From Paracyclopina nana (lineage: Eukaryota > Arthropoda > Copepoda > Cyclopoida > Cyclopettidae), in NCBI GenBank assembly GCA_019096065.1, contig JAGUCH010000002.1, positions 7,824,501 to 7,888,500 of the forward strand: a stretch of 64,000 nt of DNA, read 5' to 3'. How positions within the stretch are numbered: the first letter of the stretch is position 1; each line of letters begins with the position of its first letter. The position numbers and the translations under genes were made by a program. Below, piece by piece: positions 5,621 through 57,677 of this stretch. Below the pieces are notes generated by a model. It did no database searches and was not told the DNA's origin. It saw nothing but the letters and a program-made list of their open reading frames with translations.

Positions 5621-8600
5621 TTAAGAAATTCTACGGACAGTAATCATATCCTCTGAGACACTTTTTGCTGTGTTGAGATACCTGTCAATTGTTGCATTCA
5701 CGTTCACGTAATGCTAAAGAAGAAATAGTATGTAAAATTACAGCTTTAACTGAAGAAAAAAAACTCACTTTTTTGTACACCGGGTCATCAGCGTGTTCTT
5801 TAAGCTCAAGCAGGAGCTGATCAAACAGGTTGAACGGTAGCCAAACAGGAGATGATGTGGCATGTAGGGCATTTTGAAGCCCAAAATACTCCTTTCCGTT
5901 TCCAAGAGCTGCCTCTATGTACTCAATAGCCAACAAGCTGGCCAAGAGGAGGTAGCCATGAGAAAGATAAATATGAAGTAGCTCGGCGGCATTGGACTTC
6001 TTGTACGTAGTCACGAGCCAAGTTGGTAGAGAAGCTCCCAAAGACAACAGCCTAATCGTAACTGCTTTCTTAATGCCAGTTTGCTTTGGCTCCTCAAGGG
6101 TCTCAACAAGCTCCTTTAGTAGATTCCAAGCCGCCTCGACCGAGGTAGCTGCAGTGTTACTGCTGAAATTGTTCTCAGCCAGCCAGTCCCAAGCAGCATC
6201 TTGGTCATTGGGTCGAGCTTTGGATAGATACACGCACCTAGAAGTCAGGCCTTCCACTATGGGACGACAGTCCAGCCTATAGGGTCTCGCAATTTTGACA
6301 GCTTCCATGAACAGGTTGGATGAGACGAGCAAAGCCAAGGCGTCATTAGCAGACAACCCAGGTCCAGAAATAGCAGATCCGTGGTCCTTCTTCCTTTTTG
6401 AAGAGCTGTTGGCCAACCTCAATCTAGCTGATACCAAATGGAATTCTTTTTCAATGTCTTTCGCTTCTAGGACTTCCATCCTGGATTTAATGGCAGTAGG
6501 AGGCAGCACTTCCCCATCGTGCGAATGCTTGGGACTCACTCCAGGTGGTAGCCTGGATCCTGGATGAGAGTCCATAACTTTGAGAACTGGCTTTACAATC
6601 CAAGCATAATCCGGGTTGACCAGCCTCAAAACATTTAAGCATGCAAGGTAGCATTTCATCTGTTGCTTCAGTCCATTAAGGCTATGAGTTTCAGTTCCAA
6701 GCCTCATGGCACATTCGTACATTACATGGGCGGCTACAAGGAAAAATTCGAATTAAAAATGAAGTATGAGAACGAGAAAACTTTATACCTTTGCGGTAAT
6801 TTTCCTTGGAGACGTGGAAGGAATAAAGGAAATCGTAATAGTTGTTGACACTCAAATCAACTGATCGTGCCCTTGACTCAATGATGAGTTCTAGATCCTC
6901 GAACATGTCGATATAAGGGTAGGAGGCAAGCCTTTTCAATTGCTTACGCTCGAATAAGGTTACTACAAACTGCCTTAAAGAATCCTTGCGTCTCGATTGG
7001 TCCGGATTGGAAACCATTGCATCATAAGCCTTGTCGTAATGGCCAAGACGCAGATGGTAGGAGAATAGGGAGTAGCAAAGTGTCGTCTTGTCAGGGTCGT
7101 TTTCATCGCTGATAGCAATGGCAGACTTGGCCAACTCGATGACATGATCATAGTATCCAAATTGCTCAAACAAATTCATCACTTTCAGAAAGTACATGAC
7201 GGTCAGCCTATCAGGGCTGCTATCTTGCAAAGCCTCTGTCTCTTCTGCATTGAATAAGTGGTTGGTCAAAAAAGTGTCCACGCCAATGCCACCTGCTGCT
7301 TGAACCATCCAGTCACAGGCTTTTTCCGGCTCTCCCATGTTCAGGAGAGCAGAACCCAGGAGAAATTGCCTGGAATGACAATTCCAGTCACACCATGTGC
7401 TCAACAGACGAACGTACTCCTGAATTTGCATATGCTGGCAAGCAGATAGGAGAAACTCTTGGAATGAGGGCACGGCACACCTTGGCCAGAGCAGCTGGGC
7501 ACAAACATTGACCAAAGGCATCAAAACTGTATGCCATGAAGATGTTCCGTGGTCAGTGTCGCTACTCGTCAGAAGCAACCTTGCTTTTGAGCCAGGCCCA
7601 ACGAGGAAAAGCTCAGAAAGCGTCAACGGCCTGGAGTAACTTCTTGCTATTTCCGCTGCTAGTTGAGCTCCACTGGTTTTGCCCGAGATTTTGAGAACTG
7701 CCATCTGTCTAAGGCCTTGCTCGCTGTGAATAATGGTGTCTGTTAGTTATAACTAGTCTGTACGGAATACAGTAATGCCATATACTTACAGTGAATCTGT
7801 TGGGGGAGCGGTGGAGCTTGTCTCTGTAATCCAAGAGAGTACAAAGTAGCAATGGGCCATGACAACTGATCTTGGCAAGAAAGTTGAGTGAATGATTTCA
7901 GCTGAATTTGAGGGAGATTCATCTGCAAAACCACACTCCAAAATGATCAGTTGGAGAGCAATCAAGTTTCTTGTCAGAGCAAAGCGAGAGTACACCACCT
8001 GCTTTAACGACTCTGAAATGACGCTCCGACCAGTGCAAGAGGCAAACAAGCTCTGCCTCGAGTCTTCATCATCAAATGGCATAGTTGGGTCAAACTCGGA
8101 GTGGGAAACAATTCCACGATCAAGCTCCAGGCAATAGAGCAATACTTCCAAGGCCTTTGTCACATCTCCGATTTGCTGCAATCTAGAACCTAGCTCTTGA
8201 GAAAATGACAGCGTTGAGTAGTCCTGATCATCAGAGTTGTCTGTCAAAACCTCATGGATGATCTTCTTGGCAACTTGGTCAGGGCTATTCAACCGGAATA
8301 AGGCTTGGCTGAATTCATCAACCGCGTCTAGAGGAATGCGCTCACTGACAAGGGCTACGGCCTTCATCAAGCTGACCACGTCTTGAGCGAGCAAGGCGTC
8401 CTTGCACAAAATCGGAGTATCTTGGAAAAGCTCGGCTCCATTTATATTTGCACCTCCGTGAAGGACAAGGTGCTCGAGAGTGTCCACAGGCCGAACAAAA
8501 CTTATCGAGCTTTTCTTGATGACCACTGCCAGGCCGGTTGAACCACTCACTACCAGTCCCATAGGCGTAAGGCCAGTTTCATGATACTGAACAGCGCAAG

Positions 8601-10330
8601 AATAGAATCTAGCCCAAGCAGCGTGTGAGATAGCGATGTGTTCTTCGTCGCTGATTTCGTATTCAGTAATTTGACTTTGGATTTCCACCTCCACGGCATT
8701 GCAAATTTCTTCTTTCAGCTTCGCAACGGTCACATCCTCGTCGGTGATTGAAAATGACATCTCCACTGATCTCCGATAAATGTTGACAGTTTTGGAAAGT
8801 GTCTGGATAGAAAAACGCCCTGGGTAGAAAAGTTGTTTCAGGTAAACTTGCCGCGGGTCAAATTGACTCATTGAAGCAAACTCCGGATCCAAGCTGTTCT
8901 CCAGGATGACATCATTCCAGCCGGCCTTCTCTCCTTTGGCGCTGCCAAAATTGGCATACCTCAAAATTGGAACCCCGTCAGGATTGGTCCATAAGGCCAT
9001 TATTCTGCCATGAGGAGTCACAGAGAAGTCAATGAGGTCGTATTCAGGGGCATATACGGTAGCCAAATGCCGCAGACCAAACTGGCCATCAACTCGAACT
9101 GGTCTTAAAATGCAAAACTGGGAGTGTTCAGCAAAGCATAAGAAAGCTGCCAATGCAAATCCCTCCTGATTATTGTCACTTGTGATTTTTCTTAGCATGT
9201 GATTTTGGGCACCTAACTGCAAAGGTGCCCTTCCTTGCATTTGCTGGCTAGAAACCACGTCTGCAATCATGACGCAATCATTGGATGAAGTTAGCCACAT
9301 ACGAACTTTGTGGTCCTTGCACAAAGCAAACACATAAGCCTCATTCTGTATGGGATGAATGACCATGCTCATGACTGCTTCGCTTCCATCGGCAGCAGAT
9401 CGGCTAGAGCTAAGCATTCCTCCAAGATTGTCCCAAAGTCGTCCCAAATAGGACGAAGTCTTCAAAGTGTGCACAGTAACAATTCCTCTCATGTTTCCCA
9501 ATTTCACCAAAGTGATTCCTAATGGGTTAGCCAATGCGAAAATAGCTTCATCATCAGAGTCCAGCCATGAAGCAGATGTATTGGGAAGAGGAGCTGGAAA
9601 AAAAATTGCTGTTGGAAAAATCCTTGTTTTCACTAGGTCACTTTAACTTACTGACTCCCATCCCAGGAACAACATGAAAGTTCTCTTTTGGCGTTGCGCT
9701 TGATGCCTCAGCGAAAATGGACGGAATTCCATCTTCAGAATCCTGATAGACTTGAAAATCCTGCTTGTGCAATCGACATGGATGGGGAAAGACCAATTTG
9801 TGAACAGAGCTCACGGTTGCGACAAGAATGACGATATGATGAAAAGTTTCATGAATCGAAATTCCTGATAGTACGGGTGTGTCCTGGAATCGAAAACGAA
9901 CTCGATTTCCAGACAAATTCCAATCAAGGGAGGCTTCGTAGAGCTCAAGAACATCATGACTGGTTCGCCAAATGATGAATCGGTTTCTTGTTTGAAGCTT
10001 GGACTGGTCATAGTACACGAACCCGCCTGAGGAGTCTGGAAGCTTCACATCTTGAAGAGTGCTCTGAGCTCCACCTTAACGAAAATAGATAGTTAGTTTG
10101 AAGTGTAACAGCAAAGAATGGCACAAATCCTCACCGGTGTTGATGGTGAAGTCACGACATTTCTCAGAGACTGTTTGGTTAGGAATGACTTCTCGCATTC
10201 CCACAGCAGACATTTCAGCCATGGCTTCTAGTCTTAGTCTAGGCAATACACGCTTCAATTTGTAGCTGACTGAATGGCTCAATTTTCGGCGTTTCGCAAA
10301 TAAAGTTTCCGCTCGAAAACAAACTAGCAT
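5621..10330 (-). CDS. NUP160: nuclear pore complex protein Nup160
   Basis: Scaffold subunit of the Nup107-160 (Y) complex of the nuclear pore. Six exons on the minus strand: 10330-10135, 10074-9652, 9593-7790, 7723-6789, 6733-5769 and 5713-5621. Introns are 55-66 bp with GT-AG ends, and total coding length is 4416 nt, giving 1471 residues (human about 1436). Family anchors: GGFVYYDQSKLQTRNRFIIW with LELYEASLDWNL in the N-terminal beta-propeller, VFALCKDHKVRMW, VDEFSQALFRLN, then the alpha-helical region with YEFLYSF-like (YYDFLYSFHVSKENYRK) and DYAWIVKP. The exon 2/3 junction is taken at 9594-9651, which gives PGMGV-TPLPNTSASWLDS; a nearer acceptor would leave a 19 bp intron. The exact start is uncertain: internal Met codons before NQTVSEKCRDFTINTG are possible. 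Confidence 0.93.
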
Positions 10331-26400: not shown

Positions 26401-29400
26401 TTATACAAATGACTGTATATACTGAGAGCTCAGTAGAAGCGATTAGCGGAAGAGAGAAAATATTTCTACGTTTCCTCTTCTATTTCTTTTCACAACAGGT
26501 TATTTCTCTACCGGTAACCGAAAATCCCTGGTTATGTTTCAATTTCCAAAAAGTTCTCACTTTATTTCCCCACCAAGACTAGCATATAATTCGAAATAAT
26601 AGATCCCTACCGCCGCGCCTTGGCAAAAGTTAGACCCCAAGAAAAATCCCTGAGAAGTCGGGAAAAATTTGAGAACCGAGCAACTATTTTTCATCCGAGC
26701 GCAGCAAGGAGATAATAATAAATGTTCAACGTTCTCCATTTTCTCTTCCGGTTACCGAAAATCCCTGGTTAGGTTTCAATTTCCAAATAGTTCTCAGTTT
26801 ATTTCTCTACCAAGTGTAAATGTAAACAAATACATTGGGGAAAAAATTAACCAGGGGAATTTTTTTCCCGGGAAAAAAATCACCAGGCGAATTTTTTTCC
26901 CACACAATTCAGTCTTGAGCAGCCACAATGTGCAGGAGACGCTGCCGGGTGCGGGAGACGCTGCCAGGTGCGGGAGACGCTGCCGGATGCGAGAGACGGT
27001 GCCGGGTGCGGGAGACGCTGCCGGGTGCGGGAGACGCTGCCGGGTGCGGGAGACGCTGCCGGGTGCGGGAGATGCTGCCGGGGGCGGGAGACTTTGTTGG
27101 GTGCAGGAGACGCTGCCGGATGCGGGAGACATTGCCGGGTGCGGGAGACGCTGCCGGGGGCGGGAGACTCTATTGGGTGCAGGAGACAATGCCAGGTGAG
27201 GGAGACCTTGCACATTTTTCATTTCCTCGCTGCGCTCGGATGAAAAATAGCTGCAAAGACACAGTGAGTCATTGAGGCCGCTCAAAACTACTAATTGAGG
27301 CTGTTTGAGACCCCAATTTGAGACCACTCAAGACTGCAATTTCGACTTTTCAAGACGCACATTGAGGCTGGCTACTCAAAACTACAAATTGAAGCTGCTT
27401 AAGACTACAAATTGAGGCCGCCCAAGACTACAAATTGAGGCCACTCAAGACAGCAGTATGAGTCTGTTCAAGGTGCAAGTTGAGCCTGCTCAAGACTGCA
27501 CATAGAGGCCGCTCAAGGCTACGAATTGAGGCTGCTCAAGACTACAAAATGAGGCTTCTCAAGACTACAAATTGAAACCTCTGCTGCACAGGCAGCCTCA
27601 AATGCATATCCCCTATCTTGACATCAAGCTACCAAAAAGCTCTGGGAAGTAAATTCACCTGGGGATTTTTTTTCTTGGGAAATAAAATCACCTGGTCATT
27701 ATTTTTCCCAGGACTGTTGTTTACATTTCGTCTTTCCCTTTCATATGCTAGCCTTGGTAGAGAAATAAACCAAGAACTATTTGGAAAATAAAACCTAACC
27801 AGGGATTTTCGGTTAACGGTAGCGAAAAGTGAATCTATTGCTAACAGCCACTCTACGAGTTCAGCTTGGGGCCGAGCAGCGTTTTTAAAAGGCACCTTTG
27901 CCGGCGGCTGTACTATAGCCACCTTGAATTTACTAACTTACAAACTTAACACAATTTGATGCTTAATCAAAAATTCACACCTTAGCGTGAGTTTGCCAAT
28001 TATAATTTAGTATTACACAACCTCTGGATAATCAATAAAATGCAAACTCGATCCAACTTTTGAGCTCATACCTTTGTCACAAATTGGGCAAATAAAATTC
28101 TCAATTTGGCTGCTGATGTATTTATTTTGCAACTTCTTAAAGGTTCATTGAAAAGGTACTTCAAAATAATCTATAGCAATTTTTTAAATGAAAGTATTGT
28201 AAAAATAATAATTTGTAATAATATCATTTTAATGAAACTTCATTAGCCTATTCAACGATCAGATTAGCTTTCATTTTTGGCTATATTTGGATGATACTTT
28301 AATTAGTACTTTTTTTGTTAACTAATAAGCTGGTATGCCCAAAACTTCTTAAGAAAATAAGCAGCAGCACATCAACTTTCCTTAAAGACATATTTTTTAT
28401 ACCTTAATCTGTCATTTTTACATGAACAATACATAAGTGCAATAATTAAAACCAGAAAATACAAATTCTCCAATTCTGCCGTTTTTATCATCTCAGTTTG
28501 TTGAGAAACTATTTTTGAAACCCATTGACAAGTGTGAATTCACACTTAGGGGTCAACTGATGTCAAGTTTGCATTCTATCAATTGATTGACACCACCAAA
28601 CTGAGTTTGTACTTTATTAATTTTAAAATACAAACTTTCACAAAGGTTTGAATTCGCACCTCAAGGTCAATTGGGGTCAAGTTTGTATATTTGTAGATTT
28701 TCAAGGTAGGTAGATAGCGCCACCCGATTTTTTTAGTATCAGCTGACGCTTGTCATAACACAATTTCTCTCCTTTCCTTGTGGCGTTTTTCGTACAATTT
28801 TCCGAAGGAGTTTGGGGCGTACATGAACAAGACATAAGTGCTGTAAGAAGCTAGAGCTTTTACTCAGGGAGCTCGCGGAGCTCGCGCTGCATGCAGGTCA
28901 GTGATTGAACAATGGATCAATCAAAGTGGTAGCTATTCTTGGAATTTCAACTAACTTGGGATTTTCGTTTATTGGTAGAGAAAAATGAATCCCTACCGGC
29001 CGCAGTAAAAGTTAGAACCCGCGAAAAATCTGATCAGTCGGATTTGAGAACCTCGCAGTTATCATTTCCTGGGTTGGGAACTATTATTTGGGGGGCCCCC
29101 AAAAAAGGTGAAGCTAGCTAGCTGCGAGAAAATTCGGTGTCAAACAATATATGGTTAAGCACGCCTCTCACCCTTTCTTGCTTGTGCTTGGAATCAAAAT
29201 TTATATTCACGACCATTACTGCCAGGTCGAAGAATGGGTACCTTATGGCACTGCACTTAGGATTTTTCAAGAATATCCTCGGTGTAAGAAGTTGTTGAAT
29301 TATTAAATGAGTCGATCAACTTTTTAGACGAGCCGATTAATCGGGAGGGAGAGTATGCTAGCAAACAAACCGTACCAAGTTTGAGCCACACTAGGGCTCA

Positions 29401-32400
29401 GGTTGTTGCAGGTGATCGCTGCGCGGGCTCGATGGAAGCGCACTCCCTTGGGACGTCATCAGCTCAGCTCAGGATTGCTGCTGCTTTGCCTCCATTTTGC
29501 AATTCAGTTACTGTTACACCTCATACCATTGAACATATTCGATATTGATAATATAACATTGTATTTTATTCTTGAACTCTCATTGCATTTTAATCATATG
29601 TATATAAGCTGCGGTGCAGCTAGCAATTTATAATCATGCATGGATGCGTTGCACCCCCTCTTTTAGCAGGAACTTCCAGTTGGACTAGAGTTTCTCGTAG
29701 CGTTGCTATCCGCATATAGAAACATCTGGCGCCCAACGTGGGGCCTCTCTCGGAGCCTGAATAAGTAGGACAAGTATCCAGCCAAGTTATACCTTGAAAT
29801 CCCTATGCCTAAAAAACCGTCGAAGAAGTTCGCTCCCCCAAAAGCGGACGTTCCACTCCCCACGAGACAGAGTAAACGGCAGAGGAAAGAGTCACCTTGG
29901 CAGACGAGCCCAGTAAATCTGGAACAATCACCCTACACAAAGGCCAAGAAGAAGAAGGTTCCCAGCAGAGGTACTGACGCTCCCACGATTCTAGCGGAGC
30001 TTCTGAGGAACAAAGACATGTCCAAAGAAGAAAAGGAGGACTCGCAACCATTCACTTCCAGAAGCAAAATTCAACGGACACCCCCGGGAGACACGAGCGC
30101 GTGGCAAGACCTGAGCGGCATAGAACTCTTGGGTGAAACTCCAGGGGTAAGATCAGCTAGATCCTACGCGACAGGGGTAAATCCACAAGCTCAAAGGCAA
30201 CTCCCGCCCTCCGAATATCAGTTGCAGAAGCAACAGCTCGAGGCTGGCGGACAACCCTCCAGTTCGGCAATAACCTCTCATATTGCGGCCCATTCGGACA
30301 CACCTTTCTCAAGTTCGGCACAATTACCAGGAATGAATCTAGGTCAATCCTATGACAAACGGGACCCGTCCAATAACGCGGGTGTTACGGGGCTTGCGAC
30401 GCAGGCACAAGGGAATCCCAGTGCTCAGGTGAGCGAGGTAATAGACAGCACCCAGAATGCCACTACCACCACGGCAGCAGAGGACAACACTGTCATACAC
30501 GGGCCACAAACCTCGAAACAAAACCCAGAGACAAGTAGCACAAACACTACTGCACCTGTGTACGGAGTCCAGGACGATGCTACGGACCCGAGGAGGCTGA
30601 TAGAGAAGAATCAAGTCCCAAAAGCAGTAGGTGATAAGGGCTCAGTGGCGGGAAAAGGGGAGGGCAAAGGCAAGGGTCCCATGACACAAGATCAAAGGGC
30701 AGCATTGGCTGATGTTGAACGGCTTGGCATCTATTTCGTGGAGTTGTTTGAGGAAGCAGGAAATCACGTGGCCCTCATCAAACGGGACTTCAAGTCCAGG
30801 AGATATCTTCCAAATGAGTATCTTGAAGAAAAGAAAAATGGTCTGGGTTTATATTTGGAGCATTTTGAAGAAGTAATGGATGAATACATGCTAGCCTGCG
30901 GCGCAGGAAAAACTGCACCCACAACCGAACTAAGGCGAACATACGACAAATGCTACAATTCCTGCCTTCTAACATATAACAAGATCTCTAGAATATTAAA
31001 GGACAATAACCTACTGGCCCCGAAAACCAAGCCGACACCAGGCCCTCACACTCCACATAACACGCCTCAACTAAGCCTCTCGCAACTCCCTAGCAGCGAT
31101 ACGTATAGTCCTGAGTGGAATACCCCTACAAGGGAGACGATCGGCGGCACATTTCCGCATTCCTTTGCGTCGCAAAACCATTCAACAAGTTACGCACCAG
31201 TACACAACCCTAGCGTCCCGCCCCCAGGTTACGCTGCAAAAAGTAACGATCCTGCTCCCAAAACGGAATATCAAAAGAGGCTGGCGGAGCTAGACCAGCA
31301 ACAGTATTACCAACTGAGGATACAGGAAAATAATCTCCTACGCGAAACTCAACCGGGTAGGGAGAATCCCATGCTACCCAGAGATTGGAGGACGGCTTAC
31401 CTCAACAGGGTCCTGGAGGTCCCCACTATAAAGCCGCAGGATAACTACCTCCAACACTCCTTGGCACCAACACATAATAGGACAGCGCAACCTCCGCCAC
31501 AGAGTCAGGCTAAAAGCTGGAGAAACGAAGGCAGTTCCGCCAAGCAGGTGACTTTCAGCAACTATCAAGCCTTGAGAGATCCACTGTCACCCAGAGAGGG
31601 ACTACAGGAGCATCAAAAACAGGCCTGGCAAGAAATCGTGGAAGCTTACCATGATTCTGTACGACAGCTGGTAGCTCAAACCGATTCGATGAAGGTATCT
31701 ATCTCCTCGCTCGACGATAACCAGAAAATTAAAGAAGTACAACAGAAAACCTTGGTGGCGATGGGAAGATATCAAGCCAGAAGAGAAGCGTTGCTCTCCC
31801 TGGTCACATTAGATAAAATTCCCAAGGAGGACGCGAATGCGTACATGGATGCTAAGGACGTCTACCACAGCCTCAACGAACTCCTGAAGCACAGACAAAA
31901 GGAGGTTCCCTCGCAACCCCTATCCATACTAAAGAGGGACAACACTCTCTCCAAGTCAGCTGTGTCCCCTGCATCGCAGGCGCAACATCCGGGCGGTGAC
32001 AACTTTTGGAAGGACGTGGGAGACGCACCTCCGGGTCCCGGAGTCAAGCCGAACATAAAAATGGAACCCATCGCACTAGTCAAATTTGATGGCTGGGATG
32101 ACAGTCAATACTTCACTTTCAGGGAAAACTTTAGAACGTTCGTCCATGAGAATCCTACTGTCTCCTTCCAAGAAAAATGGGCACGGCTTTGTAGCCTAAC
32201 AATGGGAGGGCCAGCGCATTATGCGGTTGCCAACAAGCAAGCCTCGTACGACACCTACATAGCTGCCCTAGAAGAGCTAGATGCGCATTACGGAAACGAA
32301 GAGAGGCACCTTAGCTATCTACTAGCTCAGCTAAAATCTCTACCTCCAATGAACAAAAGATCCTATGAAAGCTTAATGACTAGTCAGAGCGAAGTCCGGA

Positions 32401-35400
32401 ACGTTTTCCTACAAATAACCTACATGCATGGTCAACAGGCACTAAAAAATGGCCAGTTTGACACGTTTGTATTCTCTTGTTTAAATGTGGAACCTGCGAC
32501 GCAGGAACACATGGATTCATGGTTAGTCAATCGAGGGCTCATCAGTTTCACTTTTCAACACTTCGATAGCTACGTGAAGGCAGTCCTCGGGTTGCATCGC
32601 AACAAAATGGCGACGAAGGGGCAATTTGGGAAGGAAAAAGCTAAGCCTAGACTTAAGCTAATGAACACATTATTACCTGAGGCGGCCGTGATGCACGTAG
32701 TCCAGGAAGAAAGTGAAGATCTTCTTACGCCCGACGACAGCTACGAGGACGAGCTCATAGACCTCAGCGACGAAGTACACTTGCTGCAGGTCATGCCAGA
32801 CAAAAAGGGTACTTATGCCTCGTGTCCACAGTGCAGAGGTACCCACACCCTGCCACAGTGCCCCGCTTTCCTGGCAATGACAGACCAAAATAGGATGACG
32901 AAACTGCATAGAATTAAAGCTTGCTTCCGTTGCTTGCTGGGAATTCACAATTTTGCGGATTGTGACAGAAAAACACTCTGCCAAACCTGCAACGCAGAAG
33001 ATCATCATACTCTCATTCACGCTGTATGGAAAAAGAAAGCCACATCGCAACCACAACGGCCGCAAAGGAAGTTCAATCAACCTATTATGCAAACACAAAA
33101 CACTGCTAACTCGGAGCAAAACACAGCAGTTAAACTGAAAGAAGTCACAAACTCCCTTGCACACATACAAGCGCAGTTAGATACTCTCCACCTGCAAGAG
33201 AATGATAATGATGAGCAAATAAATCTTACCGTATTGGCCCCAGCACCGCCATCAAAAAAGGGGGAAAAGAAAAAGAAGAGGGGCAAGCCGCTCGGCAACC
33301 CGGATTGGCGACACATACCGACGGTCTGCTTCAACGTAGTCCCAGTGTACATAAGCAATCCTGAAAAACCAAAAAGTAAGCTGCTAGTTAATGTGTTTGT
33401 TGATAGCGGTGCACAGAACTCTTACATAAGGGAGTCTGTCGCAAACAAGCTAGGTTTGGAAGGTCCCAGAGACGATCAATTGCTGCGAATGCTCACTACG
33501 ACGAGGTGGATCCCGAGCAAAATCGTCAATATGAAGCTCACCACAGCAAAAGGAGAGGAGTTCGAATTTGTAGCTCACACAACGCCTGAAATTCCAGATA
33601 CGATTAAAATGCCACCGATTGACTCGCTAAAGCAAAGATTTCAGGATCTCACCAAACTACACTTTCCAGACTATGCAACTAACCGCGTCGCGGATGTCAT
33701 TTTAGGCATAGATCAGTTTGAGCTCATGAAAGTAGTCAAAGTTGTGCACGATAAGGTGGGAGAGCCCTACGTAGTAGACATCAGATTAGGCCGGGTGGTT
33801 ACTTACTCAAATCAGGTTTTTGGAAGAAAAGAGCCGGTGGCCATGATGCATGCGGCAGTAATACCAAACGAGGCCTATCAAGTAGAGTCAAACAACCCGC
33901 CCCCATGCGACGCATGTGGTGGACACAATGGACCTCCTCCTGAAATTATTAAAGCCATATGGGAGCCAGACCGCGTGGATACCCTACCCTTAAACGAGTG
34001 CAAACGCATGAGCATAAATGAGCAAAAGGCCCTGGATATCTTAAACAAAACCATCACCAGACTAAAAACCAAGGAATTGCAGATGGATCTCATGTGGAGA
34101 GATCATGAACCGGCATTCAGATCGAACAGGTTAAAAGTCATGAAAGACACGTCGGCACTGGAAAAACGATTGCTACTATGGCAGCCAGACACGTACCATA
34201 AGACCCAGAAGGAGATAGAAGAATGGCTGGATCTAGGGTTCATCAGGTTGCTAGACCCAGACCTCGAAGATCTTGATGACGGGAGATACCTGGACTGGTT
34301 ATTAGTAATACGCCTAGATAAGCCTTCCATGCCAATAAGACTCGTTTTTGACGGAGCTAGGAAACATGATGGGAAAAGCCTTAACGATGCCCTGCTACCT
34401 GGCCCAAAGTTACAGAGCGATGTGCATAATGTCTTGTTGAGAGCTAGATCGGCCCCAATATTGGTAGTGGCGGATATCAGCAAGATGTTCTTGAGATTCA
34501 AGGTGGATCCCGCGTCGCGGAAATACCAGAGGTTCATCTGGCAAGGCCAGCACTACGAGGCCTCCTCAGTGGTCTTCGGGACTGCCTCAGCCCCCTGCAT
34601 GGCCTCATTTGCCATAAAACATCACATCGCTAGCTATCAAGTGTCGCACCCTTTGGGCTACAAAGCGCTCAATGAAGCACTCTATGTTGACGATTTGGTG
34701 GCAGGTTTCGAGACAGAAGCTCAAGCAAAGCAGGCCATTCAAGAAATCAGGGAAATTGGAGCAGAGGCAGGGCTCACCTTCCGGAAATGGGGCAGCTCTC
34801 ACGCCGAGGTGCTGGAAAGTGTACCAAAAGAGCTCAGAGTGGAGGGCGTGGCCATAGAACCTTCAGAGGGCCACGTTACCAAAGCTTTAGGTTTGTACAT
34901 CGACACGGTGGCAGATCAAATAGTATACCCCGCTATTCCGGATTCCAATCAAGGGAAGCCAACTACCTTAAGAAGTATGACCAAATACGTGCCTACCCAA
35001 TATGACCCACTAGGACTGATTGATCCGGTCACGTTGCGCGGCGCGCTGCTCCTACAAAGAGTACATATGGCGCGACGCACCATCCCAATTGACTGGGACA
35101 CTGCACTGGATTACATCGACGATGAAGGCGTACAAGCCATTGTAGAGGATTTTAGTCGGTACGTGAGCGACAATCAGAAGATGGAGCTTCTAAGATTCCC
35201 CAGAACCACCCGAACTCGGTATGCCACCTCTGTGCAGTTGCACGTGTTTGTAGACGCTTCAGAAGTGGCGATGGCAGCAGTGGCCTACATGAGGGTGACT
35301 TACCCAAATGACGAGGTTGAGACCACCATTCTGGGATCCAGAAAACAAATAAAACCCTTGAAGGAGGTAAGGGCCATATCCCTAATGGAGCTCAACGCAG

Positions 35401-38400
35401 CAGTGCTGGGAGCCACTTATGCTAGCCACCTAGTAAAAGAACTAGACAGAGTGGACAAGGTCGTATTTTGGACTGATTCTACATGTGTACTCACCTGGAT
35501 AAGTAAACCGGCCTGCAATTGGACACAATACGTGGGTCGCCGGGTAACCAAGATTTGCGAAGCAATGGGGGAATGGCCGTGGAGAAAAGTACACACCAAG
35601 TGCAATCCAGCAGATTATGGCACTAGAGGATGCACGCCCCAGGAACTAGCTGGTAGTACGCTGTGGATCAGAGGACCAGATTACCTGAAAAAGACAGAAG
35701 AGCATTGGCCAATTACAAAAATAAAGCCCACCGACGACGAACTGGCAGCGGTGGTGTCACAGAACGCTGAGAAGTTAAAACCCATGAAAATACTTAAAGC
35801 AAAGGCCACAACCAATCTACACATGTTGGTGATCCCTCCACATTTGCAACCTACCCCACACATCTTACATAGGTGGAAAATGTACCGCAAATTCGACAAT
35901 ATAGACTTCTCCCGCTACTCCAGGTATCAACACTTACTGCGCACATGGACTTGGGCAAGGAGATTTATACAAAGAGGGGTCATACGATTCCGAGGCCCTC
36001 TGTTCGCTGAAGAAATTAAAAGAGCCGAAATACAGTTGGCCACAATGGAACAACAAAAGTACTTAGGCCAAGAGCTTGATTACTTTCTCAGGAATAAGTC
36101 TTGGCCTCCCAGGTCCAAACTAGCGTCGCTAGATCCTATAATAGGTTATTACGGGGAAATTAGAACCAAGGGACGTCTAGCAAACTCCCAAGTGCAGTGG
36201 GTGGGCAGGCAGCAACTTGTCCTGATAGGACCTATGGCGAAAGCCTTTCTGAACAAAATTCACTCCACAGTGGGGTGTGGCTACGGGGTAACTCGTTATT
36301 TGTGCGACGCACAAATAACTCACCATGTCATCGGTGCACGGAAACTAATGAAGACCATCTTGCGAAGATGTGGCATTTGCCAAAGAAGGACTGCAGAAGC
36401 AGTACCTCCGCACATGGGCCTACTCCCGTCGAATGCAATACCCCTCACTGACCTGCTGCCATTCAAATATGTCAGCACAGACTTCTGTGGCCCCTTCAAA
36501 GTGACTTTCTTGCGAAGCACTTATGATATGTATGTAGCCATCTTTATATGTCGACACACAAAAGCCATACACGTGGAAGAAGTGTACGACCTATCAACTG
36601 AAGAGCTGAAAAGAGCTATGGATAGGTTCATAGCCAGGAGAGGCACGCCTTACCTATTAAGAAGTGATGGAGGCTCAAATTACATCGGACTTCGAAATGA
36701 GATAGCCGCCAATCCACGGTATCACGAGCTTGTACAAAAACTGCAAACAGTAGATTGGGACTATTTGAGACAGTTCTCGAGTGAGGTTGGAGTTCTACAC
36801 TGGACCCTGTCGCCCCCTCACACCCCTCACGCAAATGGGTTAGTGGAGGCCGCTGTAAAGATTTTCAAGAAAACATTTTACAAGCATTTCCTACATTCCA
36901 CTCCCATCGAGATCTTTAAGACGTTAATAGTGAAAGCCGAAGGTTTCGTAAACGGCAGGCCACTCGGAGAGATCGACAACGTTATAATTACCCCGAATCA
37001 TTTTCTCACGCGAGGACCACCGGGAGATCTCACACCTGTCATCGACCCATCCACCATCACAACCAGAGATAGGGTCCTACAAGAGACCAATGCTTGCCTC
37101 CAGGCCATGTGGGAATACTGGACAAAACACATCGTGCACCAAATGAACAAGTTGAGGACATGGAAGAACCATCGCCCGCAAATCCAACAAGGAGACGTTG
37201 ACATAGTACTAGACAAGGAGCTCTTCAAGAAAAGATTTCAGTGGCCCGTAGCTCGAGTGCATCGCACCTACGAGGACGCGGATGGCACTGCCAGACGGGC
37301 ATATGTAAGGATGATGGTACCTTATAGCGAACTACCTGTCTTCTATGAAAAGTCCACAGAAGTCCTCATTCCTTTACGCTGTGCAGAACCAGACGATACT
37401 CCTCAAGCTCTGAAGCAAGTGGCAAACGCCAGGCTCACTGGAAATCCTCCAGCAGAGCCACCCATGGATGCTGCGTCGCAGGACGATATCGAATCATTGG
37501 CCAGGAGAATCGAAGTCAATCGCCTCGCCGAGGTTTTAAGCCGCCTCCCACCTCTTCAACCTAAACACGACCCGGGGCCGGCACAGCTGAAAAGAGAAAC
37601 AAAAAGGCCGTCGAGGCTTATTGAAGAGCTTTAACTCACCCACGTTTTCATAATTGTTTTAAAACGAGACGAATACATTCCCAACGAACGACTACCAAAA
37701 TTTGTTGGTAAACAAACTAAATCAGGTTGCGTGACTATTCCCGCAAAGTCAACTTGCGACAGGAAACACAACAAACCCAGCTCAACCTTCCGGCGAACCA
37801 GTTTAATTAAACAGTTCACAGCAACAACAACTCGTGGCGATCAATAAAAATGGGTAAGAAAAAATCTAGAACAGAGGGTTTCAGCGTCGCTGCCCAGGTA
37901 TCTAGTCCACCTAATGAACCACCTCCAACGGTGGAACAAGATGAAGATATGGTAGATGTCACCAACAATGAAACATTCGATTCTGATCCGGCCCCGGCGA
38001 AGTCTCCTAAGAAATCAAAAAAGAGAAAGCGATCCTCGCCTGCACCGTCCAGCTCATCATCAACAACGGACGAAAATGAATCGCAGCCACAAGACCTGGA
38101 ATCTGATAGTGGCAGCGACGCTGAAGGGGGGGAAAAAGGAAAATTAATTGCGGCATCTATGTTAATTACAATACCCAGGGGGCAAGACGACGACCTGATT
38201 TACGAGCCATCGGCGTATTTTGAAGACCGCACAACCCCCACGCGTCGCGTGAATAATAATCCGCCATCAACTGTATTCGATTTTTCAGGAGCGAAACCTC
38301 TAAATCCCGAGCAATTGGAAGCCAAGGCCCTCATGGCCAACCTACTCGACCTGAAGGAGGTCGTTTTCGAAGATCATCTGATGAACCTGGATGGCAAGCA

Positions 38401-41400
38401 AATAATCGAGCTGTACTCGGACCCAACAAAGGGTATTCTGGCAGACTCCGCGGCGTACGGCCCTCAAATGACGGGAGACCCGAGGACGAGGGAGGAGAAA
38501 GCCCAATGCTGCGCCGCTGCTTTAAGGGCAGATTCGTTGAGGATGGCAGCGTTGGCGTCTGGATGTCTCCCCTCGGACACGCTGGCCATGTGGCACCCGA
38601 ACCTGAGGCCCGAGTACTTAAAGTACCAGATGTCGGTGGAGGAGGAGGGCGACCTGGGGTTCAGGGCCCTGGACACGGAGGCCATGGCCGCCGCCGCTCA
38701 AGCCTCACAGAAGTATGTAGTCTTCCTGGATTGCTTGGGCCGCAAACTCATGATGGATGCCGCCACCCCGGGGCCTGCGTCGCAGGTGCTCCACTCCGCG
38801 CCCTCTGCCATAGAGCAGATAATGGCCTTTTTAGGCCACTCGGATCGAATGCCGATTGGATCCTTGGAATGGGTTCGCAACTTCTGGTCGGCCATCTCAC
38901 GCAACCCCTCTCTGCTAGCCGCAACCTGTCCTCCAAGCGGACCTCAGCCCCTCGTCCAGGACCAAGGACCTTCGCTGCCCACCTACCAGGTCAGGCCACC
39001 CGCACCCACAACGGCTCCGCCCTCAGAGGCCGACGGCTACACCTGCCCCTACCTGGAATCGTGCATCACCGGCAAAGCTGCGACGCAGGCCTGCACATCG
39101 AAGACTTGCATCTTCCGCAGCCTCACAGTGAAGACCGGAGATGTTTTGCACGTGACAGCCGAAAGATGGGCTTATTACCCACTGGAAAGGGTCAAGGACT
39201 GGGCAAAGATGGAAACGGGACCCTATGACAACCGTAGGCGAGGCTTTCGAACGTTTGTCTTCTATGGAAAAAACCAAGAGTGGGCCGACACCAAAGAGCA
39301 GCTCCAGGATCTTGGATTCTTTGACTCCATCCGGGGAGCTGGCGTCGCCACATTGGGCACGCTGAACTGGACCAGGGAAGCCCTAAAAAGAAGAAATCTC
39401 CTGAATTCTAGGGGGGAACAACCCAAATCTTGCATGGCTGGCTATGTTCTCGGGGCGGCGAATGGAGTGGTGCTGGTGGACCAGTGTTTGTATTCAGGTA
39501 CCACGGCTGGATTTTTGGGGCACGAGATCCCGGAGGAAGTCGTGGCCATCCTCGAGTCTGAGACCACGTTTAAAGTGCAGTCTGGCATTCACGAAGAAGG
39601 TCGGTTCGAGGAAATGGGCGTAGGCTTAAAGAGCTATGTGGATGCCTCTCTCTTGGCTCTTACGCAGTTCCCGCAGCCAGGTGTGGAGCCAGGAAGAATG
39701 CAATGCAGCCCCACCTATGTGGCCACCCGCCTTGAATCGCCCTCCATCCCAATCATCGTGCACAAGGACAAGAGGGAAAAGAAGCACGCCATGGAAGGAG
39801 CTTCCGTGGTCAACAGGGCTTTCCACATCAACTTTACGGAGGCTGATTTCTCCTTGCCTTTCGACGAGTGGGAAGACAACATGAAGCTGCACACCTTCTG
39901 CACCATGTCATTGCCCTTTGCCTTGATGTGGACTGCCGCGTCGCGGGCCATGGACTTGGAGCTGTGCTCCCCCAAGGCTGACGCCCTGAGATACCTCAGG
40001 CTGTTGCTCTCTCGCCTAGTCAACATGCCAGGAGTGAACGGCATAGGCAAGACTTCCCTGCAACGCAGGCCCTGGAATCTCGTAGACATTCATGAGAAGG
40101 CCGAAGGCAGGGGAGGAGTCCCTTTGAGGGCCGAATGGGTCATGATGGACAGCTGCGCTGCCAACAGCGTCAAGCACCCTCTGCCTGCCAAGAAGCTTTT
40201 CCTCCAGGGCCTGAAGCTCTCGTATGACGCCTGCAACCTGGACAAAGACCTCGTTACCTTCTTGAGGGATTTTACGGGTGGGAGGCCTCTCACGTGGGGA
40301 ATGCTGCTGGACTACCACTTCCAGTTAGGCGCCCTCTCACCTCATGTGTGTGACCGCTGTGGCAGCCCCGATCACCTGGACAAAGATTGTAAGGAAGAAA
40401 ACTTGTTATGCCTCTACCCTTTGTGCCGGGCTACCTCCCACCTTCTCTTTGTGTGCCATCGTTTGTGGATCCGCTGTGAGAAATGCCAAATGTATGGGCA
40501 CATGGCTATTCATCACACAGATGAAGATTTCATCAGGGTCTATGAGAATTTCAGATTCTGCGCCTTATTCAATCGAAGGACGCTCTCCTTGCACGATTGC
40601 TCCATCTACATTTGCGAGTTTGAAGAGGAAGGCCTCGTCCTGAGCCTCCGTGATGAAGAGCAACTCAGAAAGGTGGAGATTCCTTTCACGATGTAAATGT
40701 TGTCGTAATAAATGTTACCTTAGCCGCGTCGCGGACTAACCGACCCTTAGAAGATTCTCTTCGCGTCGCGTTGAACTTTAGAAGTGCTTTCTTTGCCCCC
40801 ATTTCACTCCGTGTCGCACTTCTAGGGGGGAAGATGTTGCAGGTGATCGCTGCGCGGGCTCGATGGAAGCGCACTCCCTTGGGACGTCATCAGCTCAGCT
40901 CAGGATTGCTGCTGCTTTGCCTCCATTTTGCAATTCAGTTACTGTTACACCTCATACCATTGAACATATTCGATATTGATAATATAACATTGTATTTTAT
41001 TCTTGAACTCTCATTGCATTTTAATCATATGTATATAAGCTGCGGTGCAGCTAGCAATTTATAATCATGCATGGATGCGTTGCACCCCCTCTTTTAGCAG
41101 GAACTTCCAGTTGGACTAGAGTTTCTCGTAGCGTTGCTATCCGCATATAGAAACACAGGTGTTGTGGGTATCAGTGGTTACCCAGGAAGACTTGATTGCA
41201 ATAGCGTGAGAGGAAAATGTTTTAGGGAAGAGAAATCATTCTTTTTTTCTTCGTTGCTGCCACAACCAACGCCAAGTTGATGAGAAAGACGTTTTGAATT
41301 CCTCCCCTGTCTTAAGCAGACAATGGGACTGGAAAGACAGGAGAAAACTATTTCCCAATTAATGGGCGAGGAACGTCGGAGTTGTTCCTAAAAACTATCC

Positions 41401-49906: not shown

Positions 49907-50731
49907 TTATTCTTGATCGGCGGCGAAATTGGCGGAGGGGCAAGAGCAATCGGCGTTGCAGCTTCCGGGGCATTTGGAGTCCTCTCCGCAGTCGTACCAG
50001 CAACCGCATTCGGGCACATCCACGGGGTCCTTGCAGGTCAGGGAGACGGAGTCAAAGACTTGGCCTTTGGAGCAGCCAAACTTGTTGGGCTCCTTGCCGA
50101 AGAAGCAGGTGAAGAAGAACTGGCAGTCAGTGGGGTGGGGGAAGACGGGATGGGCCTGGAGGAGTCCTTGGGGTCCGATGGTCTCCTTGCCGGGGCAGGT
50201 GAAGCCCTCGATGGTCTTGAGGCCGCCTGTGTTGCCATCGTCATCCCTGGGGCAGATTTTGCCCTCGGGAGAAAGCTCTTCCTCGCGCACGCAAGAGCCG
50301 ATGGAGATGTCGAAGACCAAGGAGGAGACGCAGGGCATCTCGTGCGCCACGCCCTTGTCGCACAGGTAGAACCTTTTGCACTCTTTTGGGTCCTCGTGGT
50401 CGAAAATGCCGTTGGCCCTCGGGCACCTGGGGTCGATGCCAGCTTGAGGCTCTTGGACGAATTCGCGCTTACCGCATTCAATGCCATGGGGGAGCTTGCA
50501 CCTCTCGTGGTTCCTTTGGCTGTCATCGAAGAGGAGCCCGTCCTCGCAAAGCTCGGGTTTGGCTACGTTGTCCTCGCAAACGTAGTAGAGATCGCATTGC
50601 TCAGGGTCCGGAAAAAGACCGTTGGGCTCGGGGCATTTGAAGTTGAAGTTGGAGCCTGCGAACTCGAAATCCTGGTCCTGGGCCTTCGCCAGGGCCAGGC
50701 TGGAGCCAAGTAATAATAGGGTTTTCAACAT
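49907..50731 (-). CDS. obstructor/CPAP3-type chitin-binding protein
   Basis: Secreted cuticle protein of 274 residues, single exon. A signal peptide (MLKTLLLLGSSLALAKAQ) is followed by three CBM14/peritrophin-A domains, each with six Cys: residues ~33-86 (CPEPNGLFPDPEQCDLYYVC), ~102-160 (CPRANGIFDHEDPKECKRFY) and ~178-242 (CPGKETIG... TDCQFFFTC). Three such domains after a signal peptide is the CPAP3/obstructor architecture; these proteins bind chitin in cuticle and tracheal matrix. The tail is unusual: a short Cys-rich extension (GCWYDCGEDSKCPGSCNADC) of about 30 residues. The stop TAA is itself part of an AATAAA (49906-49911 on plus), a possible overlapping poly(A) signal. Codon use is markedly C/G-ending, which also keeps the antisense strand open. 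The obstructor subclass is not assigned. Confidence 0.92.
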   Translation of the reverse strand: MLKTLLLLGSSLALAKAQDQDFEFAGSNFNFKCPEPNGLFPDPEQCDLYYVCEDNVAKPELCEDGLLFDDSQRNHERCKLPHGIECGKREFVQEPQAGIDPRCPRANGIFDHEDPKECKRFYLCDKGVAHEMPCVSSLVFDISIGSCVREEELSPEGKICPRDDDGNTGGLKTIEGFTCPGKETIGPQGLLQAHPVFPHPTDCQFFFTCFFGKEPNKFGCSKGQVFDSVSLTCKDPVDVPECGCWYDCGEDSKCPGSCNADCSCPSANFAADQE

Positions 50732-56516: not shown

Positions 56517-57677
56517 ATGACTGTGAAGAGGAGGAGCACAAAGAACCCACCCGTGTTTACCCATGAGTTCGTCATCCAGAACCACGCTGACATCGTGGCT
56601 TGCGTGGCCATGGTATTCGTCGCCGGCCTTATGTTCCAGACGTTCTCCCCGCTGGCCTCACTCTTCATTGCTCTTCACCACAATGTGACGGTGCCAGTGG
56701 AGTTTGCGCCTGGCCAAGTCCACGATGTGGTGCAGTACACTGCTGGGATCAAGGATTTGCCGGCGATTTTCTTTTACCTCCTAATCGTCATCGTTATGCA
56801 CCAGATTATCCAAGAGTACTCCCTCGATCGTGTCAACAGGAAGCTCCACTTGTCCAAGATCAAGCATGCCAAATTCAATGAGAGCGGACAGCTCCTGAGC
56901 TTCTACATCATCAGCCTCCTATGGGCTGGAGACATTATCATGCGCGAGAACCTGTTCAGCGTGCGCCAACTTTGGGAGGGCTACCCGCACAACCACATGA
57001 CGTTCATGTTCAAGTTCTTCTATATCGTGCAGATCGCCTACTGGATCCACATCTACCCCGAGCTGTACTTCCAGAAGGTCAAGCGTGAAGACATGATGGC
57101 CAAGGTCCAATACGCCACCCTTTACTTGCTCTTCATCGGATCTGCCTACGTTTTCTCCTTCACTCGGATTGCCCTCTGCTTGCTCGTCCTCCAGTACGCC
57201 GTCGAGGCCGTTTTCCACGCATCAAGGCTCCTGTCCTATGCTGATAAGGTTGAGATTGCCCGACCTCTCTACCGCATCCATGACATCCTTTTCGTTCTTG
57301 CCCGTCTCGGATCCATCGCTTTGGCAGTTTTGGCCTTCTGGCACGGACTCGCCAAACTACCCGAAAAGGATCAAGTCATTGATTGGAAGGCCGGCATCTT
57401 TAACACCTTCCTTTTCCGGATCACATCCCTCGTTTCAGTCTGCGCCCTACAGGCTTGGCTGATGATGAACTTCATCACTTTTCAATTGAGGAAGAGGCGC
57501 GAGGATGCTGCCAACAATTCGGCTAATGCTCCATCAAACAAAACGAAGAGAACCCAGCAAGAAAAGGCCAAGGCTCGCAAGGAACGACCCAAGAAGGAGA
57601 CCAAGGATGACGAGGACGAAAATGAGCTGCCAGAAGTTGATCAAAACACCAAGCAGTCCCTCCGTCAGCGAAAGTAA
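56517..57677 (+). CDS. TRAM1: translocating chain-associated membrane protein TRAM1
   Basis: ER multi-pass protein that contacts nascent chains at the Sec61 translocon. 386 residues, single exon, close to the vertebrate length of about 374. Support: the N-terminus MTVKRRSTKNPPVFTHEFVI with the conserved N-terminal TRAM block; about eight hydrophobic segments; a TRAM/LAG1/CLN8 domain (KLHLSKIKHAKFNESGQL, WAGDIIMRENL, FFYIVQIAYWIHIYPELYFQ); and a long lysine- and glutamate-rich cytosolic tail (QQEKAKARKERPKKE). Start context CACC-ATG is strong. The lack of introns in a gene usually split in animals may reflect intron loss or a retrocopy; the frame and tail are intact. It converges on WDR46. Poly(A) hexamer AATAAA is at 58166-58171. 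Confidence 0.95.
   Translation: MTVKRRSTKNPPVFTHEFVIQNHADIVACVAMVFVAGLMFQTFSPLASLFIALHHNVTVPVEFAPGQVHDVVQYTAGIKDLPAIFFYLLIVIVMHQIIQEYSLDRVNRKLHLSKIKHAKFNESGQLLSFYIISLLWAGDIIMRENLFSVRQLWEGYPHNHMTFMFKFFYIVQIAYWIHIYPELYFQKVKREDMMAKVQYATLYLLFIGSAYVFSFTRIALCLLVLQYAVEAVFHASRLLSYADKVEIARPLYRIHDILFVLARLGSIALAVLAFWHGLAKLPEKDQVIDWKAGIFNTFLFRITSLVSVCALQAWLMMNFITFQLRKRREDAANNSANAPSNKTKRTQQEKAKARKERPKKETKDDEDENELPEVDQNTKQSLRQRK

Follow-up and report, generated by a model that had tools for sequence, protein, structure and literature searches.

Background

Packaging signals that are dispersed over a genome have been hard to demonstrate, owing to the faintness of their motifs. They have been described for single-stranded RNA (ssRNA) viruses (MS2, picornaviruses, hepatitis B virus) under a multiple-site assembly model in which many short stem-loops with a common motif and varied surroundings are spread over the genome (PMC6281560). 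We here analyzed a 64,000-nucleotide stretch of the genome of the copepod Paracyclopina nana (the window; contig JAGUCH010000002.1, positions 7,824,501 to 7,888,500), which harbors a BEL/Pao retrotransposon with a total length of 11,752 bp, studded with copies of one small hairpin. Of the ideas described so far, such signals of ssRNA viruses come closest, and the element is a candidate member known here from sequence, with many stem-loops sharing a loop motif found across its length. It differs in being a retrotransposon, in that its motif is evident from sequence alone, about 50-fold or more above what codon use predicts, in that the loop switches between clades within one host, and in that the reader is putative.

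Retroviral and Ty1 packaging signals are read by Gag or its zinc knuckles and lie mainly in one 5′ region, whereas here a single small hairpin type is repeated along the element. The likeness would be in RNA structures read by Gag or a zinc-knuckle domain, as in mouse mammary tumor virus (MMTV; PMC8096270). No title reporting iterated hairpins in BEL/Pao or other long terminal repeat (LTR) elements was found in the literature searched, where subscription papers were mostly beyond reach, and the terms 'hairpin', 'packaging' and 'palindrom' are absent from the main text of a BEL/Pao survey (PMC3118150).

An 11-nt hairpin repeated along the element

An earlier note on this DNA had counted 19 copies of GCGWCGC at 29404–41155 and three in the other 52 kb of the window; both counts were confirmed, and every core start that it gave is exact. 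The dinucleotide composition of the element predicts 0.77 copies. As the note had also said, the copies fall in all three codon phases (9, 6 and 2, with two further copies in the 3′ untranslated region, UTR), and their flanks are complementary, the first arm pair at 18 of 19 sites and a run of at least two pairs at 16 of 19. Codon use fails as an explanation, since the excess survives a codon null, calculated analytically and exactly, in place of shuffles, and conditional on the encoded protein and on how the element uses codons: in open reading frames (ORFs) 1 and 2 together, GCGWCGC is observed 17 times against 2.02 expected, and the 11-mer that includes both arm pairs 15 times against 0.17. 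Codon and amino-acid bias was thereby ruled out, and the hairpins reflect selection beyond codon use. When arms were shuffled among the 19 sites, the 18 pairs at position 1 compared with a mean of 6.5 (maximum 14) and the 17 pairs at position 2 with a mean of 7.1 (maximum 13), while the nine at position 3 were within chance (mean 6.2, maximum 13). All four Watson–Crick pair types occur at the outer two arm positions. Palindromes with arms of at least five numbered 36 in the element versus 78 in the other 52 kb for a one-base center, and 29 versus 78 for a three-base center.

The unit is an 11-nt hairpin, a four-pair stem NNGC/GCNN closed by a GNC triloop. Its length is fixed, because the arms are strongly complementary over the two pairs next to the core and much less so further out: at 89 unique sites of the window's own clade (the GNC clade), arm positions 1 to 4 are paired in 82, 78, 36 and 23 cases. 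These counts, those by loop that follow and the arm-position counts of the other clades pool related elements minus identical contexts, so that orthologous sites are still counted repeatedly; the shuffle of the window alone and a set of five diverged elements serve as checks. The center base of the loop is free, as GC-loop-GC sites with each of the four bases mostly have both outer pairs (GTC 38/43, GAC 37/46, GGC 14/19, GCC 10/13). Near-consensus loops have them in 6/7 (ATC), 6/7 (AAC), 4/6 (GAT) and 3/8 (GTT) cases, and sites with other closing stems in 7.5%. In the window, all four pairs are present at 18 GNC sites, of which ORF1 has 10, ORF2 seven and the 3′ UTR one; there are in addition five hairpins with ATC or AAC loops and, in each LTR, one with a GGT and one with a GTT loop. 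The parts of the element and the hairpins are as follows (aa, amino acids; A, B and D denote relatives of the element).

29404..29724, + strand: 5′ LTR, 321 bp
40835..41155, + strand: 3′ LTR, 321 bp
29805..37634, + strand: ORF1, Gag-Pol, 2609 aa, with DUF1759, RVT_1, Peptidase_A17 and DUF5641; zinc-knuckle-like motifs at about aa 1007–1072
37850..40696, + strand: ORF2, orphan protein, 948 aa; zinc-knuckle-like motifs near the C-terminus, aa 834–889; candidate hairpin reader
30394..30404, + strand: hairpin, loop GAC; second arm pair U–G
31165..31175, + strand: hairpin, loop GTC
32494..32504, + strand: hairpin, loop GAC
33683..33693, + strand: hairpin, loop GTC; in 4/4 aligned elements
33905..33915, + strand: hairpin, loop GAC; in 4/4 aligned elements
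34510..34520, + strand: hairpin, loop GTC; in 4/4 aligned elements
35070..35080, + strand: hairpin-like, loop GAC; first arm pair C–A, later pairs resume; core in 3/4 aligned elements
36121..36131, + strand: hairpin, loop GTC; GAC in relative B
36302..36312, + strand: hairpin, loop GAC; arms reach nine pairs past the core; in 4/4 aligned elements
37471..37481, + strand: hairpin, loop GTC
37882..37892, + strand: hairpin, loop GTC
38113..38123, + strand: hairpin, loop GAC
38240..38250, + strand: hairpin, loop GTC
38775..38785, + strand: hairpin, loop GTC; GGC in relative D
39078..39088, + strand: hairpin, loop GAC
39340..39350, + strand: hairpin, loop GTC
39936..39946, + strand: hairpin, loop GTC; GAC, GAC and GGC in relatives A, B and D, with one arm pair mismatched in A
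40724..40734, + strand: hairpin, loop GTC, 3′ UTR; GCC in relative D
40761..40771, + strand: hairpin-like, loop GTC, single arm pair, 3′ UTR
30896..30906, + strand: additional GNC-loop hairpin, loop GGC
35036..35046, + strand: additional GNC-loop hairpin, loop GGC
31969..31979, + strand: near-consensus hairpin, loop ATC
32592..32602, + strand: near-consensus hairpin, loop ATC
32987..32997, + strand: near-consensus hairpin, loop AAC
37257..37267, + strand: near-consensus hairpin, loop ATC
40058..40068, + strand: near-consensus hairpin, loop AAC
29609..29619, + strand: 5′ LTR hairpin, loop GGT, directly after a TATATAAG; may be chance
29698..29708, + strand: 5′ LTR hairpin, loop GTT; GAC loop in relatives A and D
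41040..41050, + strand: 3′ LTR copy of the GGT-loop hairpin
41129..41139, + strand: 3′ LTR copy of the GTT-loop hairpin

Folded in 123-nt contexts, the 23 GNC and near-GNC stems reach a median pairing probability of 0.27; the medians are 0.04 among the 69 remaining four-pair triloop stems in the element and 0.05 among 241 such stems elsewhere. Stems this short would depend on a protein or a favorable context to form. The 23 sites together with the 5′ LTR site are spaced somewhat more evenly than random (coefficient of variation, CV, 0.64 versus 0.94, p 0.02).

Hairpins in close relatives

The hairpins had been thought to be confined to one retroelement, which proved too narrow, since relatives carry them too, partly at other places, and other BEL/Pao clades of the genome have hairpins of the same architecture with another loop. 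Six close relatives were found, three of them retrieved nearly whole and the other three around the reverse transcriptase (RT) only. Three relatives, 75–76% identical across a 1-kb RT piece, hold 21, 19 and 16 cores, counts that take in some flank and, in two relatives, include LTR copies twice. Alignment of four elements in two halves gave 41 columns with a core in at least one element, the LTR site being counted twice and one column lying at the end of the window piece. Cores at 33688, 33910, 34515 and 36307 are common to all four, many sites occur in a single element, and the center base of a given site can be T, A, G or C depending on the element. For the LTR site (29703), the window and relative A share the arms TA..TA and relative D has CA..TG, the outer T–A pair having become C–G. 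From these alignments, hairpin sites appear to turn over fast via substitution.

Loop types across BEL/Pao clades

The neighboring clade iterates the core GCAWTGC, with two more pairs at 106 of 127 sites (near-identical copies counted), and a third clade iterates GCCWGGC, with two more pairs at 39 of 44. Read on the sense strand, the third clade has GCCAGGC in 32 of 33 unique sites, and CAA and CAT loops as well; we refer to the second and third clades as the AWU and CAN clades. Arm positions 1 to 4 are paired in 71, 63, 29 and 27 of 75 sites in the AWU clade and in 30, 29, 17 and 15 of 33 in the CAN clade.

Each clade is specific for its loop. A codon null covering the ORF sequence around the RT of 7 GNC, 6 AWU and 6 CAN elements gave observed and expected own-loop counts of 50/0.78 (GNC), 52/0.70 (AWU) and 54/1.15 (CAN), a 47–75-fold excess. 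Swapped loops were few or none: AWT 0 versus 0.21 expected and CAN 0 versus 0.46 in the GNC clade, GNC 0 versus 0.18 and CAN 7 versus 0.48 in the AWU clade, and GNC 0 versus 0.26 and AWT 2 versus 0.27 in the CAN clade. The separation is thus not absolute, because the counts of 7 and 2 exceed expectation. At a per-locus threshold of p < 0.01, loci are marked for GNC in 7/7 cases in the window's clade, for AWU in 12/12 cases in the AWU clade, and for CAG or CAH in 12/15 cases in the CAN clade. Eight distant BEL/Pao elements have no hairpin with a GNC, AWU or CAN loop, and none of 10 distant loci is marked for any of these classes; L065 and L067 are marked for GNC loops with other closing pairs. 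Six loop labels placed on the RT tree require six changes, with a minimum of five and a shuffled mean of 26; in this labelling L038 counts as CAN, and near-copies inflate the clustering. The RT pieces of L022 to L026 are identical.

Further loop types were seen in other families. A distant family, L059/L069 (G000:C1:14146000-14153500), has four-pair stems at 12 of 31 sense GNAAN pentaloops versus 24 of 444 other loops, and at 0 of 3 in antisense. Lambda boxB is a GNRA-like pentaloop that is read by the N peptide and is not scattered over the genome; the L059/L069 pentaloops resemble it but are iterated. Weaker GNRA tetraloops occur in L062 (8/24 versus 20/241) and L064 (4/18 versus 14/237), whose relatives have CAN triloops. 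The GNAAN and GNRA loops came from a scan of thousands of loop features, which makes their p-values optimistic. In L053 and its downstream part L068 (G000:C9:4348000-4356000) there are TTAA-centered palindromes with variable complementary arms: sites with at least two further pairs number 13/20 in L053, 21/25 in L068 and 5/12 in L054, the background in the window outside the element being 16/123 and 5/103. All these pentaloops, tetraloops and palindromes were found by searching and need independent data. Sense-strand seven-base loops NNCNANN are possibly in excess in L054, L056, L058, L060, L061 and L064; this heptaloop of distant families is suggestive but was picked from the same data, and we make no claim for it. 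A short-period array with GCGACGC, spaced mostly by multiples of 19 bases, lies at G000:C1:997359-997686.

RNA or double-stranded DNA

The CAN clade allows the strand to be read. Across 19 loci of the CAN set, a completed stem accompanies 133 of 458 CAN loops and 28 of 354 loops of the reverse complement NTG (p 1e-14); in the five diverged elements the counts are 55/146 and 11/104 (p 1e-6). Single wobbles tilt in the same direction, with a G–U to A–C ratio of 32:15 in CAN hairpins and 188:225 in other loops (p 0.003). The signal in this clade is single-stranded and sense, most simply RNA rather than double-stranded DNA (dsDNA), because CAN loops beat their reverse complements at completing the stem. 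Given the homologous architecture shared with the CAN clade, we infer that GNC and AWU sites would also act as RNA.

Proposed role and alternatives

On balance we favor the interpretation, probable by a modest measure, that the hairpins are dispersed RNA recognition sites of the packaging type, read by a zinc-knuckle protein encoded by the element, with the loop conferring family specificity. The genomic RNA of the element is studded with about 20–25 copies of an 11-nt stem-loop made of two free complementary pairs, two fixed G–C/C–G pairs and a GNC triloop, and each related BEL/Pao clade has mainly one loop, GNC, AWU or CAN, probably GNRA-like elsewhere, scattered over the element. The hairpins would be redundant recognition sites for the Gag nucleocapsid or the conserved ORF2 protein, and the zinc-knuckle reader would coat and package the RNA of its own element. 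Among the options raised in the earlier note, the evidence favors a set of triloop hairpins in RNA that serve Gag or packaging, and we infer the role itself, with its element-encoded reader and packaging outcome, from the redundant copies, the uniform loop per element and the conserved zinc-knuckle proteins; that the loop switches between clades within one host likewise points to a reader belonging to the element. More tentatively, and at somewhat less than even odds, the hairpins may form an identity code, in which related families in one germline each mark all of their RNA with a private loop that co-evolves with an element-encoded zinc-knuckle reader, so that each element packages itself and not its neighbors; the loop would have switched several times (GNC, AWU, CAN, GNRA-like), the triloop clades keeping the stem length. 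The favored role, if true, would hint at how coexisting selfish elements keep their RNAs separate, and ORF2 of these BEL/Pao elements would gain a candidate role. Here the sequence by itself shows motif and length clearly and offers natural loop swaps between sister clades in one host, so that the idea lends itself to direct tests using short RNAs and individual protein domains.

Several observations weigh against this interpretation. Taken element by element, only one of the five diverged elements shows a significant strand difference; among reverse-complement loops CTG completes 14/101, nine raw counts coming from L037 and L063; and the wobble ratio in the five-element set is 11:6 versus 50:67 (p 0.075). 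In the GNC and AWU clades the strand is not readable because the loops are self-complementary, and the wobble test gave no signal there: A and T at the center of the GNC loop are balanced (46:43), and GNC-clade wobbles (23 G–U to 39 A–C, background 392:504) show no tilt to RNA. Stems with a pairing probability above 0.5 make up 6 of 23 (0.26), no real difference from 0.17 in the element and 0.23 outside. Three of the 15 CAN-clade loci (L038, L062, L064) are unmarked, and L020 of the AWU clade is marked for CAH as well. On the protein side, ORF2 was read in some BEL/Pao families only, and hhalign found no profile homology between ORF2 and Gag pieces and nothing shared beyond the knuckle pattern. 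Finally, relative B has unpaired arms (TA..AT) at the LTR site, one-sided arm changes occur at 38245 and 39941 among the aligned elements, and a paired change at an aligned site was found in one case only (29703, relative D). The compensation between paired arms described in the earlier note is thus evidenced chiefly by comparison of different sites rather than within an individual site.

The same RNA hairpins could serve mainly in something other than packaging, with the element's RNA-binding protein coating the transcript so as to control translation, nuclear export, splicing or small-RNA attack. We regard this as rather unlikely but worth serious attention: nothing specific counts against it, the sequence data fit packaging equally, and it would suit the location of sites in ORF1 and ORF2 as well as in the 3′ UTR and the LTRs, their spacing, which is somewhat more even than chance, and an orphan ORF2 whose zinc-knuckle residues are kept between clades. 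HIP1 of cyanobacteria is a fixed 8-mer of bacterial genomes, a highly iterated GC-rich palindrome, and the earlier note had likened the motif to it and suggested a binding site for a dimeric protein. A dsDNA site of this kind, bound by a DNA-binding factor that is dimeric or of the methylation type, would account for the strand symmetry of the GNC and AWU cores, but it is very improbable: the outer two positions use all four pair types and yet remain complementary, the arms varying with compensation where HIP1 is fixed, the non-palindromic CAA, CAT and CAC loops of the sister clade favor the sense strand, and GCGWCGC is tied to retroelement clades without genome-wide enrichment (3273 copies in 92 Mb versus 4055 for the reversed pattern).

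Host RNA-binding proteins typically target short stem-loops that have defined loops, and the elements might have adapted to one of these, but a single protein would be expected to impose a single loop, whereas each clade of this one host has its own (GNC, AWU or CAN) with swapped loops few or none; we give a host reader very little credence. Only slightly less improbable is that the palindromes pair with the same site on a second RNA copy in multi-point genome dimerization. The near-perfect palindromes of GNC and AWU sites would permit it, and Ty1 offers a precedent in its PAL1/PAL2 intermolecular duplexes, formed at one place (PMC9503155). However, self-complementarity is lacking in the CAA, CAT and CAC loops and in the GNAAN pentaloops, which are nonetheless similarly iterated, and pairing drops off past two arm pairs. 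That the hairpins are a by-product is barely credible, whether of codon or amino-acid bias, given a 47–75-fold excess over the codon null and four of six swapped loops at zero, or of RT template switching, which can produce inverted repeats but would not yield a fixed core and a fixed arm length.

The element, its proteins and its genomic surroundings

The two LTRs match at 321/321 bases and are flanked by a 5-bp target duplication, CAGGT, at 29399–29403 and 41156–41160; with LTRs 100% identical and this duplication in place, the insertion is fresh. A putative tRNA primer-binding site, TGGCGCCCAACGTGGGGC, lies two bases downstream of the 5′ LTR. ORF1 matches RVT_1 (4e-12), Peptidase_A17 (1.6e-20), DUF1759 (8e-10) and DUF5641 (7e-12) in Pfam; the integrase domain rve is absent from the matches given for the ORF1 pieces, which had arbitrary cut points. 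With its LTRs, target duplication and Pao-type Pol, the element is a BEL/Pao (Belpaoviridae) retrotransposon, sharing with the genus Semotivirus the LTRs, DUF1759, RT, Pao peptidase and zinc-knuckle motifs. The ICTV profile of Belpaoviridae gives a size of 4–10 kb and names gag, pol and an env-like gene (PMC8742986). The present element, at 11.75 kb, lies beyond that size, which is a range and not an exclusion, and has a second ORF with zinc knuckles that the profile does not mention (PMC8742986).

ORF2 has no Pfam domain above the cut-off, zf-CCHC falling slightly under it, and a search for relatives in 5.8 billion proteins found none among the 7991 candidates scored. Its homologs are the ORF2 proteins of other BEL/Pao clades in the same genome, its profile also matches two further BEL/Pao families, and the knuckle residues (aa 834–889) are invariant in 6/6 aligned proteins spanning clades. 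Its predicted structure had a mean pLDDT of 37 and was not used. A large ORF2 downstream of Gag-Pol is kept in several BEL/Pao clades (the window, L049, L051, L068 and L069; 948–1392 aa), the frames of L068 and L069, 979 and 1062 aa, being still open at the locus end; in the AWU-clade copy L050 the region is split into two frames of 400 and 717 aa.

The genome comprises 92 Mb in 10 contigs, with at least 138 BEL/Pao RT matches, three of them with an internal stop; at least 150 Pao-peptidase matches were also found, and RT and peptidase matches are nearly all stop-free. Scans of viral contigs yielded no relatives, Rfam gave no match at gathering score in the window, and COX1, sought as a marker of host identity, had no match in the assembly. 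Host genes in the window encode a Patched-type SSD protein (1651–3357), Nup160 (exons at 5688–9633), a peritrophin-type chitin-binding protein (49910–50731) and a TRAM1-like protein (56517–57674). The last points to a copepod as the probable host: it matches metagenome proteins at up to 84%, and its best named matches, at 72 and 68%, carry locus prefixes that we take to be those of Tigriopus.

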